In this document: positions 12,071 to 14,589 of the stretch, one piece after another
How the letters are laid out: every line of letters begins with the position of its first letter
Numbering within the stretch: position 1 is the stretch's first letter
Origin: Agreia bicolorata
Lineage (GTDB): Bacteria; Actinomycetota; Actinomycetes; Actinomycetales; Microbacteriaceae
Assembly (NCBI RefSeq): GCF_000938265.1
Contig: NZ_JYFC01000002.1
Span: 310,001 to 374,000, forward strand
DNA length: 64,000 nt
Reading direction: 5' to 3'
Notes under the pieces: model-generated
What the model saw: only the letters and a program-made list of their open reading frames with translations
Databases searched by the model: none
Told to the model about the DNA's origin: nothing
Translations under genes and position numbers: made by a program

Positions 12071-13015
12071 CTACGGGAGCGTTGACGACACCTGTCCCTC
12101 GGCCGATGCGGCGTCTGCGATCTCGACCGACAGCAAGCGGTATTCCCGGCTGCGCCCGGGACGTGTGGCCGAGCAGGTCGACAGCAGCGGTTCAGACAGC
12201 GTCTCTGCGAGCATCACCTTGATCGTCGCCGCCGGATACTCGAGCTCTATGCGCCAGACGCCGTCGGCGAAGCGGGCCGACGTCGGGCCGAGGATGTCGA
12301 TGCGCTCGTCGTCGAGGGTGGCTCGTGCGTGGTGTTGGGCCGCCTGAACGGCATTCGGTAGCGAGCTGCGGCCGCGGAAGAAGCGCTCGTCGACGCGGCC
12401 CTCGAGGTACCGGGTGACGAGGCCGACCGCATCCGCCCCATCTGCCCGGCCGTAGTAGAGGCCGTGCGGCAGGAGCACCAGCGTGCCCGCGAAGCGGTCG
12501 CCGCCGAGGTGCGAGCACTCCCACGTCTCTTGGGGAAAAGCCTCGGCGAGCGTCTTCACGACCTGCCGGCCGCGCACGGCGCAGCACTGATCGTGCCTCG
12601 CGTGGGCGCAGACCGCGACGATCGGCTTGTGGGAGACGACCCCCGTCGACCCGTCGAGTGGAACGTCGAGCAGCTCCTCGGCCGTCTCCACCCATCCCCA
12701 GCGCACACCCTCGGAGCCGGGCCGGGAATCGACATAGGCCCAGCGGTAGCCGTCTTGCGGCGCCCGCTTGCCCGTTCTGCGAATCGCGAGCGGTCGCATG
12801 CCCGCACCCTCGACCTTCTTGACGAGCGCCCGACCCACCTCGACGGGCAGAGTCGATTCGAGAAACGCGTGCTGGCCCCAGGCGCCCGAGATCTCGACGA
12901 GAAACCACTCGGTGCCCCGCGAACCGGTGCCCGGCAGGGGATCTCCGCGCTCGCGGGAGCGATCGCTGCAGGGGCGCCAGTCGGGCACCACCTGCCGCGC
13001 GCTGAGCTCGGTCAC
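12071..13015 (-). CDS. sucrase/ferredoxin-like (thioredoxin-fold, Apd1/AIM32-type) protein
   Basis: This 314-residue protein belongs to the sucrase-ferredoxin-like family, whose fungal members Apd1 and Aim32 hold a thioredoxin-like [2Fe-2S] cluster with mixed Cys/His ligation. Visible candidates are C136/H138 (VCAHARH), C144/C145 (QCCAVRG), C167/H169 (ECSHLGGDRFAGT) and H184 (LPHGLYYGR). The GTG start overlaps the stop of the upstream cupin gene (GTGA), so it is the third gene of a coupled set with the repeat peptide and the oxygenase. An electron-transfer or redox role for that oxygenase is an inference. The family name does not imply sucrase activity. Confidence 0.85.
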   Translation of the reverse strand: MTELSARQVVPDWRPCSDRSRERGDPLPGTGSRGTEWFLVEISGAWGQHAFLESTLPVEVGRALVKKVEGAGMRPLAIRRTGKRAPQDGYRWAYVDSRPGSEGVRWGWVETAEELLDVPLDGSTGVVSHKPIVAVCAHARHDQCCAVRGRQVVKTLAEAFPQETWECSHLGGDRFAGTLVLLPHGLYYGRADGADAVGLVTRYLEGRVDERFFRGRSSLPNAVQAAQHHARATLDDERIDILGPTSARFADGVWRIELEYPAATIKVMLAETLSEPLLSTCSATRPGRSREYRLLSVEIADAASAEGQVSSTLP

Positions 13016-14274
13016 GCCTCGAGCACCAGAACGCCCTCGCGCACCAGGCGCCGGCACACCACGATGGCGTCTTCGTCGTCGAGGCCGGGAAGGGAGCCCA
13101 CGGGCGTCGACTCACCGAGCAGAAGGTGCTCGAGTGCGGCGTGAGCCACGACGGGCAACGAGAGCGTGCGACTGCCGGCCGCGAGGCACACCGTGTCGCC
13201 TCGGGCCTCTACGCGGCCTGAGAGCCCGAGACGCCAGCGAACGACGGATGCGACGTCGAGACGAGCGAGGCCGGCCACAGTCGCGAGGGGGCGCACCGGC
13301 TCGGGTCGGGTGACGTTTGTGAGTCGCCGGGCGAGGGATGCGGCGGCGGCGGCGGGCGTGACCGGATCGCGTTGGATGGCGGCCACGAGATCGGCCACCG
13401 TCTCGGCGAGCACGTCGGCCAGCGCATCCGGGTCGCCGAGGTCGAGGCCGAGCGGCAATGACGAGCGCAGGGATGCGTCGGCGCGGGTTCTCGCAGATAC
13501 CAGTGCCACGAGATCGGCACGGGTGAAGGCGCTCATGCCGATCGTGAGGTGAACCGACGTGTCACCGAGGGCCTCGGCCGAGTGGATCCATCCCCGCGGA
13601 AGATAGAGTGCGTCGCCGGGCCGCAGAACCTCGTCGATGACGGGTGCGTTCTTCGCCTCGTCGGCGACGGCCTTGGAATACTGCGACCACGGCTGGTCGG
13701 CGAGCGGATCGGGATGCACGGGGGAGTGGATCCTCCAGCGCTTCTCTCCGGCGATCTGCAGCACGAACACGTCGTGCACGTCGTAGTGGGGATCGAAGCC
13801 GCGCGACGACGCCGGCGTGACGTACGCATTGACCTGCACCGGATGCCCGAGGTCGGACACCAGCCGGGTCGTGAAGTCGATGATCGGCGGCCAGGTGCGG
13901 TGCAGCCCCTGCAGAACGATGGTCGCGCCGGCAGCGAACTCGGCGAGCACCTTCTCGCTCGAGACCTGATCGGCGATCTCCGCTCCGAAACCGCCCGGAG
14001 CGGTGAAGCGGTCTTTGGCGAGCACCTGGCCCTCGACGGCCATGCGCATAAAGGGTGTGCGGAGGCCCCGCTCGGACACGAGCTCGTCGACCGCATCACT
14101 CGAGAACAGATCTGAGAAGTCGCGCTCGAGGCTGTCTGCCCGAGAGAGCAAAGGGCCTCGGCCCCAGTAATCGGCCGCGAATTCATCGGCGCCGATGTTG
14201 ATGCAGCGAGAAAGCGCGGGCCGGTTTCCCGACCCGCGCTCGGCCCTCGCTTCGTGAGGGCTAGGGTTCATCAC
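13012..14274 (-). CDS. cupin-4 / JmjC-type Fe(II)/2-oxoglutarate-dependent oxygenase
   Basis: This 420-residue protein resembles the ribosomal-oxygenase-like cupin-4 family (YcfD/RoxA, MINA53, NO66). The iron triad is visible as H163-x-D165 in GFDPHYDVHD and H231 in PRGWIHSAEALGDT. EKRWRIHSP follows the HxD strand as in relatives, and a C-terminal winged-helix-like region completes the fold. Known members hydroxylate His or Arg side chains in proteins. The start (GTG 14274, or ATG 14271) overlaps the stop of a 61-residue His/Asp/Gly repeat peptide gene, which makes that peptide a natural candidate substrate. This link is an inference. The downstream GTGA overlap ties in the sucrase-ferredoxin-like gene. 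Confidence 0.86.
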   Translation of the reverse strand: MMNPSPHEARAERGSGNRPALSRCINIGADEFAADYWGRGPLLSRADSLERDFSDLFSSDAVDELVSERGLRTPFMRMAVEGQVLAKDRFTAPGGFGAEIADQVSSEKVLAEFAAGATIVLQGLHRTWPPIIDFTTRLVSDLGHPVQVNAYVTPASSRGFDPHYDVHDVFVLQIAGEKRWRIHSPVHPDPLADQPWSQYSKAVADEAKNAPVIDEVLRPGDALYLPRGWIHSAEALGDTSVHLTIGMSAFTRADLVALVSARTRADASLRSSLPLGLDLGDPDALADVLAETVADLVAAIQRDPVTPAAAAASLARRLTNVTRPEPVRPLATVAGLARLDVASVVRWRLGLSGRVEARGDTVCLAAGSRTLSLPVVAHAALEHLLLGESTPVGSLPGLDDEDAIVVCRRLVREGVLVLEA

Positions 14275-14456
14275 GCCGATCCGTCGGCTCCGCCGTCGTG
14301 GCCATCGGGGTTCGCGCCGCCGTCTGCCGGGCCTTCGCCCGCAGATGCCGCGCCGTCCGCGCCACCGTCGTGTCCGCCTACGTTGGCTCCGCCATCGGCG
14401 GGGCCTTCGCCTGCGTTATCGGTTCCTGATGTGATGTCCTCGTCGTTGATACCCAT
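14271..14456 (-). CDS. 61-residue Gly/Asp/Ala-rich tandem-repeat peptide
   Basis: A very strong Shine-Dalgarno sequence (GGGAGGAGA, four bases before ATG 14456) precedes a 61-residue peptide. Its short head is MGINDEDITSGTD, and residues 14-37 and 38-61 form two 24-residue repeats, 20 of 24 identical. Each repeat holds AGEGPADGGAN and GHDGGADG. It has no cysteine, no lysine, no aromatic residue and no signal peptide, and is strongly acidic. The stop overlaps the cupin-4 oxygenase start. I do not recognise a named family with certainty. A modified-peptide precursor, an oxygenase substrate or a metal-binding peptide are possible roles. The Asp-rich motifs recall calcium-binding repeats but do not match the RTX nonapeptide. 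Confidence 0.8.
   Translation of the reverse strand: MGINDEDITSGTDNAGEGPADGGANVGGHDGGADGAASAGEGPADGGANPDGHDGGADGSA
14274..14345 (-). repeat. second 72-bp unit of the repeat-peptide gene
   Basis: This unit encodes residues 38-61 (SAGEGPADGGAN... to ...GADGSA). It parallels the unit at 14346-14417 codon for codon. Only four residues differ, but 12 of the 20 shared residues use a different synonymous codon. Confidence 0.85.
14346..14417 (-). repeat. first 72-bp unit of the repeat-peptide gene
   Basis: This unit encodes residues 14-37 (NAGEGPADGGAN... to ...GADGAA) and directly adjoins the second unit without a spacer. Confidence 0.85.
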
Positions 14457-14589
14457 CGGTTCTCCTCCCACGGTGGATGTCTGGCCACCTTCGAGCCTCA
14501 CGCTACTCCGGTCGACCGACAGCGCGGGAGGGGTTTACAGATGTTGCCACGACCGTCGTAGGGGGCGCATATAGGGAAGAATGAACAGC

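Follow-up and report, generated by a model that had tools for sequence, protein, structure and literature searches.

A cassette of three overlapping genes in Agreia bicolorata encodes a small acidic repeat peptide, a JmjC_2 oxygenase and a protein resembling the Suc_Fer family. It occupies positions 12071..14456, minus strand, of the window, the whole 64,000-nucleotide stretch of contig NZ_JYFC01000002.1 (positions 310,001 to 374,000) that was analysed. On balance, with a probability that we put at roughly 57%, this cassette is a minimal system resembling those for ribosomally synthesised and post-translationally modified peptides (RiPPs), in which the oxygenase would beta-hydroxylate aspartates of the repeat peptide, its precursor, with a [2Fe-2S]-type protein assisting. 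A sequence-only reading of this stretch had described the three genes, both of their overlaps and the ribosome-binding site, leaving the strand unstated, and all of these were confirmed among the following features.

14271..14456, minus strand: coding sequence of the repeat peptide, precursor-like, 61 residues (similar peptide at 80/80 closest-set loci, and a codon test, both described below)
14462..14468, minus strand: ribosome-binding site GGAGGAG of the repeat peptide
14430..14447, minus strand: leader motif NDEDIT (consensus N-D-D-D-I-T)
14346..14408, minus strand: peptide repeat unit 1, EGPADGGANVGGHDGGADGAA (from aligned column counts)
14274..14336, minus strand: peptide repeat unit 2, EGPADGGANPDGHDGGADGSA (from aligned column counts)
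14271..14274, minus strand: GTGA overlap of the peptide stop and the oxygenase start
13012..14274, minus strand: JmjC_2 (cupin-4) Fe(II)/2-oxoglutarate (2OG) oxygenase, 420 residues (PF08007, E 3.6e-30; kin NO66, MINA and YcfD)
13780..13788, minus strand: iron-binding motif H163-x-D165 (aligned to HYD of NO66)
13741..13743, minus strand: K178, expected 2OG-binding lysine
13582..13584, minus strand: H231, distal iron-binding histidine
13021..13344, minus strand: C-terminal region of the oxygenase, expected to be a winged-helix leader-binding domain like the RiPP recognition element (RRE) (compare PMC12710340)
13012..13015, minus strand: GTGA overlap of the oxygenase stop and the Suc_Fer start
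12071..13015, minus strand: Suc_Fer-like protein of the thioredoxin-fold type, 314 residues (PF06999, E 2.9e-17)
12497..12610, minus strand: candidate [2Fe-2S] ligand stretch, C137-X8-C146 ... H170-X3-D174

Conservation of the cassette, which is widespread in actinobacteria, was followed in three samples. The same-family sample held 199 genomes, the Agreia genome included. The closest set consists of the best 80 of 537 confirmed relatives; these 80 are all actinobacterial and were chosen by closeness to the Agreia enzyme, and the set therefore says little on distant kin. A wider search, covering 394 genomes of the class and 396 of the phylum, gave 51 best-match loci, to which 40 further stretches chosen from the matches listed were added, making 91 loci, a non-random collection that partly overlaps the closest-set genomes (L106 is the Agreia locus). 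After inspection, 16 of these loci were set aside as an outgroup and 75 were kept as the wider set; the 16 are exactly the lowest scorers (99.9-218.6 bits), the other 75 scoring 220.2-711.7 bits.

The sequence-only reading had proposed that the peptide may be the dedicated substrate of the oxygenase, with conserved three-gene linkage as a check; a lack of the peptide gene next to most homologous oxygenases would have told against it. Instead, a repeat peptide precedes the oxygenase at every one of the 80 closest-set loci, and the idea survives: the three-gene linkage is conserved, and the peptide behaves as a dedicated partner of the enzyme would. A filter recovered 78 of these peptides and inspection the remaining two, one interrupted by 46 consecutive N and one whose repeats are split between two reading frames, which together give 80/80; the peptide start at L031 is lost at a contig end. 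A Suc_Fer gene lies downstream of the oxygenase at 73/80 loci, those without an adjoining one being L041, L054, L080, L082, L083, L097 and L100. Among the same-family genomes, 23/199 have an oxygenase match; the 20 loci with close homologues (L002-L021) all carry a repeat peptide directly upstream, and three remote matches (L022-L024) carry none. In the wider set, the filter found an acidic peptide upstream of the oxygenase at 73/75 loci, the two others being L151, whose cassette peptide was caught by a separate filter, and L156, which starts at a contig end. Suc_Fer adjoins the oxygenase at 64/75 wider-set loci versus 0/16 outgroup loci. A degenerate DNA pattern for HDGGADG gave some hit in 95/394 class genomes and, among the pattern matches listed, the 33 picked clusters of at least two close hits all lay no more than 197 base pairs from an oxygenase match. 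One scan of viral contigs, made for phage carriage, found no relative.

The core of the peptide varies together with the enzyme, as the sequence-only reading had thought worth checking. On an oxygenase tree of 64 rows, built by a quick method (with stars on 20/61 inner branches and a long-branch flag on three outgroup rows), four core-type labels assigned by eye require 6 changes against a mean of 29.6 when shuffled, a value as low being reached in 0/200 shuffles. DGGA-type cores fall in one oxygenase clade and DGTD-type cores in another; the DGGA clade has L179 and L188, whose arrays consist of Asp and Thr, at its base. One genus (g125) holds both core types, each with an enzyme of the matching clade on the tree (L139, L163), and a second (g137) holds both by peptide and enzyme score, L189 at 458 bits versus L162, L164, L166 and L196 at 238-253 bits. 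Core type follows oxygenase clade, even inside one genus.

No model in Pfam or NCBIfam recognises the repeat peptide, which evolves as a protein. In a codon test on 24 peptides of 85 residues (242 between-genus pairs, which are non-independent), in-frame differences were synonymous in 6945 cases and non-synonymous in 3695, with corresponding ratios of 1044:9965 and 1077:9816 in the +1 and +2 readings of the same peptides; since the pairs share ancestry these totals are not a count of events, and the contrast between frames is strong. The usual plan is a short acidic leader (DDDIT) followed by three 21-residue units. Three units were counted in 69/77 closest-set relatives by a pattern that fixes most positions, and two are present in Agreia. 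Column conservation was taken from 73 aligned peptides of 78-92 residues, in which the Asp columns of the units are conserved in 72 or 73/73 and the His columns in 71 or 72/73. The leader motif D[DEN]D[IM][TSN] is present in 76/77 closest-set peptides extracted, and a looser form in 50/73 wider-set peptides, several of which are displayed cut before the leader. An encoded precursor with a conserved leader and a variable core, as expected of a RiPP, is found here, and at 80/80 closest-set loci it is encoded with a candidate modifying enzyme that would act on it. The peptides are acidic and Gly/Ala-rich; of the 77 in the closest set none contains Cys, 67 lack Lys/Arg and 74 lack aromatics. More distant relatives have cores built of (DGGA)n, L187 being an example, or of DGTD/ADAD arrays, found for instance in L150 and L163, and the peptide of L151 has a different repeat, SADGTDQGVxGGTYGPRDA, with Tyr and Arg. 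Upstream of the peptide, a search for an IdeR-like iron box allowing up to 5 substitutions gave no hit. The commonest upstream k-mers, tried as a regulatory motif, were GC-rich words and were rejected (a 9-mer in 7 genera versus 4 in simple shuffles).

The oxygenase is read from GTG at 14274, with ATG at 14271 as an alternative start, and matches Cupin_8 as well as JmjC_2. Its HxD...H motif, which the sequence-only reading had called intact, consists of H163, D165 and H231; these three residues, together with N149, Y151 and K178, are invariant in 48/48 aligned cassette enzymes and match NO66, so that every one carries the iron triad and the 2OG lysine of a JmjC_2 enzyme. K178 and H231 are also kept in 16/16 outgroup JmjC_2 proteins. 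N149, Y151 and K178 have expected catalytic or cofactor roles, K178 presumably being the lysine that binds 2OG. Two basic residues are typical of the cassette: R72, present in 48/48 cassette enzymes and an Arg in 3/16 outgroup proteins, and R348, present in 47/48 and 2/16; R72 is a candidate contact for an acidic substrate. The family profile aligns to NO66 (4y4r) over nearly its full length, positions 12-399 of 400, and reaches 399 in 4csw. As in ribosomal-oxygenase structures, the C-terminal region is presumably winged-helix and RRE-like, and an RRE-like domain is accordingly to be expected there in the cassette oxygenase by analogy. Fusions of such folds to PF08007 have been noted in algae and fish, and their bacterial homologues occur in RiPP-like settings (PMC12710340); the parts of that work consulted here name no peptide family, Asp repeats or Suc_Fer partner. 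The cassette enzyme resembles NO66, MINA53 and YcfD in sequence family (PF08007), HxD...H motif and 2OG lysine. Those ribosomal oxygenases hydroxylate His or Arg residues of ribosomal proteins at C3 (PMC4543633); unlike theirs, the cassette gene is tied to an adjoining Asp-repeat peptide and has a patchy distribution.

The third protein is iron-sulphur-type by its PF06999 match, as the sequence-only reading had supposed, with a ligand set that departs from the family pattern. C17, C137, H142, D143, C145, C146, H170, D174 and C282 are invariant in 44/44 aligned homologues. Apd1 and Aim32, also of PF06999, bind their cluster through CX8C...HX3H (PMC8482512). The cassette protein keeps the CX8C and the first His of this set, and differs in having Asp in place of the second His (HX3D) in all 44, so that HX3H is found in none, and in the extra invariant C17, C145 and C282. 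A [2Fe-2S] cluster with altered ligands is possible on this residue pattern. The family profile also matched Aquifex [2Fe-2S] ferredoxin chains (1m2d/1f37) at E 0.0017, over 28 positions alone. Because the third protein is an altered Suc_Fer, the role of electron or iron supplier that had been proposed for it is kept here as one that we infer. Adjoining Suc_Fer is missing at 11 wider-set loci; of the 10 of these genomes that were searched whole, five have a copy elsewhere, and the Pfam matches beside three such unlinked copies are unremarkable (transporter, dehydrogenase, gyrA, HAD hydrolase, amino-acid permease). In two DGTD-type cassettes, a second Suc_Fer homologue lies upstream of the oxygenase (L166:699-1571 and L196:881-1657).

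The course of events that we infer from these observations, including the modification and its chemistry, leader binding, the cluster, its redox role and the cellular function, would run as follows. The ribosome would make a small acidic precursor with the N-D-D-D-I-T motif at its N-terminus and the Asp-repeat array, in the Agreia subtype nearly all Asp-Gly, at its C-terminus. The JmjC_2 oxygenase would probably grip the N-terminal motif through its own C-terminal domain and, using Fe(II), O2 and 2OG, oxidise repeat Asp residues on their side chains; 3-hydroxyaspartate would be the likeliest product, with 16 Da added at each of many sites per peptide. The Suc_Fer-like protein, expected to carry a [2Fe-2S] cluster, may serve as a redox partner, holding the iron of the oxygenase in its reduced state, or may handle iron bound to the product. 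As no protease or exporter is conserved beside the cassette, the product may remain full-length and intracellular. There are precedents for parts of this scheme. The JmjC hydroxylase FIH is reported to hydroxylate both Asp and His at C3 (PMC9814778, PMC4543633), and the JmjC enzyme BipG to act in a RiPP pathway (PMC12707348). BipG/BpmG and PbsQ, from biphenomycin-like clusters, likewise combine a JmjC/cupin-like enzyme with a ribosomal precursor (PMC12707348, PMC12257519); as described there, PbsQ and BipG are Orn hydroxylases in multi-enzyme clusters, whereas the present cassette has no other modifying enzyme, protease or exporter conserved with it.

Several observations weigh against this interpretation. 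Neighbouring open reading frames of at least 90 residues within 6 kilobases were clustered into families, the full 6 kilobases upstream being present at 67/80 loci, and across the 80 loci these included no conserved gene for leader removal or export, as a RiPP cluster would be expected to have, and no conserved second modifying enzyme. Most RiPP clusters carry a protease, an exporter or further modifying enzymes, and local genes for leader removal or export are not needed by all RiPPs. The leader motif was not found in 23/73 wider-set peptides. Asp is followed by Gly in 728/784 cases in closest-set cores versus just 443/833 in wider-set cores, so the exact target motif varies. The near-invariant His of the Agreia subtype is left unexplained by a pure Asp model. 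Suc_Fer was found nowhere in five of the 10 genomes searched whole at E 1e-10 and is therefore not strictly required. At L140 and L182, both of one genus (g89), the oxygenase stands behind an acidic non-repeat protein with no adjoining Suc_Fer; the enzyme falls in the DGGA clade by tree at L140 and by score at L182, and their Suc_Fer is encoded elsewhere, next to gyrA. Finally, many single hits of the HDGGADG pattern lie far from any oxygenase, as chance would give.

The alternatives to Asp hydroxylation can be set against the same observations. Asp could be modified to something other than a simple alcohol, through desaturation, rearrangement of Asp-Gly or cross-links between repeats, with electrons given by the iron-sulphur protein. 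Plain 2OG hydroxylation needs no redox partner, a point in favour of such a product, and macrocyclisation of a RiPP by a 2OG enzyme has been reported (Xia 2025). We nevertheless regard this as unlikely, since the known kin NO66, MINA53 and YcfD hydroxylate C3 (PMC4543633) and Suc_Fer-less cassettes exist.

The sequence-only reading had also offered His29 and His53 as target sites, and hydroxylation of repeat His would parallel what NO66 and MINA53 do on ribosomal proteins. The nearest solved kin of the enzyme are histidyl hydroxylases and His is near-invariant in the Agreia subtype, but the wider set speaks otherwise. The last ~60 residues were scanned at 61/75 wider-set loci with a peptide passing an Asp filter, and 28/61 cores have no His in the part scanned, 21 having none anywhere in the displayed string. 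These 28 include two non-repetitive proteins, L140 and L182, and also L187, whose enzyme belongs to the DGGA clade and whose array is almost purely (ADGG)n. All 61 cores are Asp-rich, Asp content being part of the filter that selected them. The scan left out 14 loci (three close to Agreia, nine with HDGG-type repeats, L151 and L156), at least 12 of which add no His-free core, most having HDGG. Because cores without His occur in both enzyme clades, His is rejected as the general site and as the main target is quite improbable; it may be an extra site in the Agreia subtype.

A still slimmer chance is given to a ribosomal oxygenase beside which the peptide is an unmodified partner or a coupled regulatory reading frame. 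Sequence kinship with YcfD, NO66 and MINA and the fact that this is the sole PF08007 match found in the Agreia genome would suit such an enzyme; its patchy occurrence in the same-family sample is odd for one serving the ribosome, and the peptide evolves as a protein and co-varies with the enzyme. Equally improbable is that the peptide goes unmodified and serves as an acidic chaperone, an iron carrier or an oxygenase inhibitor, consistent as this would be with the acidic, Gly/Ala-rich composition and the missing protease and exporter, since a tandem motif of variable copy number with a separate N-terminal motif would look more like a multi-site substrate.

As for its surroundings, the Agreia cassette has purF downstream on the same strand and purM divergent. 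The sequence-only reading was right about these flanking genes. No other separate family of open reading frames of at least 90 residues within 6 kilobases occurs at more than 9/80 closest-set loci. With frames overlapping the cassette excluded, the commonest is found at 9/80 loci (four genus labels) and the next at 7 loci (five labels), and because other neighbours recur at no more than 9/80 loci the pur neighbourhood looks incidental.

Some of the outgroup enzymes have other sorts of small peptide, and some less related JmjC_2 genes likewise follow small peptides carrying DGTD or SDG motifs, a point in favour of the proposed scheme. At L158, L159, L161, L167, L169 and L172, all in genomes of one family (f24), a peptide of 35-38 residues ending in DGTD[SG]SSDFI lies ~170-230 base pairs upstream of a JmjC_2 gene that is more distantly related. 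In L172 this arrangement of peptide and JmjC_2 gene is joined by a FhuF-like gene (FhuF_C PF11575 over its cut-off, PF06276 and TIGR03951 below theirs), and a FhuF homologue is also near the JmjC_2 gene in L161; in the other 14 outgroup loci no iron-sulphur partner was found within the stretch examined. These two loci hint that an iron-sulphur partner may recur in sister JmjC_2 systems. On a Streptomyces albidoflavus plasmid (L213:2364-2510) and in L171, a peptide of 45-48 residues ending SDGGGTGRSDGND precedes another JmjC_2 gene, followed on the plasmid by an aldo/keto reductase gene. At L157 the peptide ahead of the JmjC_2 gene contains Cys (LICDPDPSDDCWIVCNPNYCY); genes for a histidine kinase and an ABC transporter accompany the pair, and the locus looks like another RiPP cluster.

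No paper listed by searches of open-licence literature named the peptide or its pairing with an oxygenase, and this peptide-oxygenase route is apparently undescribed. The result is a conserved orphan peptide family linked to one enzyme, whose substrate, site and chemistry are directly testable with two to three small genes. As Lys/Arg and aromatics are rare in these peptides (the Agreia one has neither Lys nor Arg), they would tend to escape tryptic proteomics and ultraviolet detection, which may be why they went unnoticed. Likeness to siderophores suggests that repeated hydroxyaspartate would bind metal; in EGF-like domains, C3 hydroxylation is reported to have no substantial effect on calcium binding (PMC4543633). 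It is a doubtful but conceivable extension that actinobacteria widely contain a class of intracellular ribosomal poly-(3-hydroxyaspartate) peptides, a polyvalent metal-binding polymer made by one JmjC enzyme from an encoded Asp tandem array and loaded with, or relieved of, iron by a [2Fe-2S] protein (Suc_Fer, or a FhuF-like one in a sister system). If true, such a polymer, freely tunable in the number and motif of its repeats, would be the ribosomal equivalent of siderophores containing hydroxyaspartate. If Asp is hydroxylated as we propose, the cassette would provide a JmjC_2 enzyme that makes a repetitive oxidised peptide with no linked protease or exporter, and would suggest a function for many actinobacterial genes of the "cupin domain" and Suc_Fer-like kinds.

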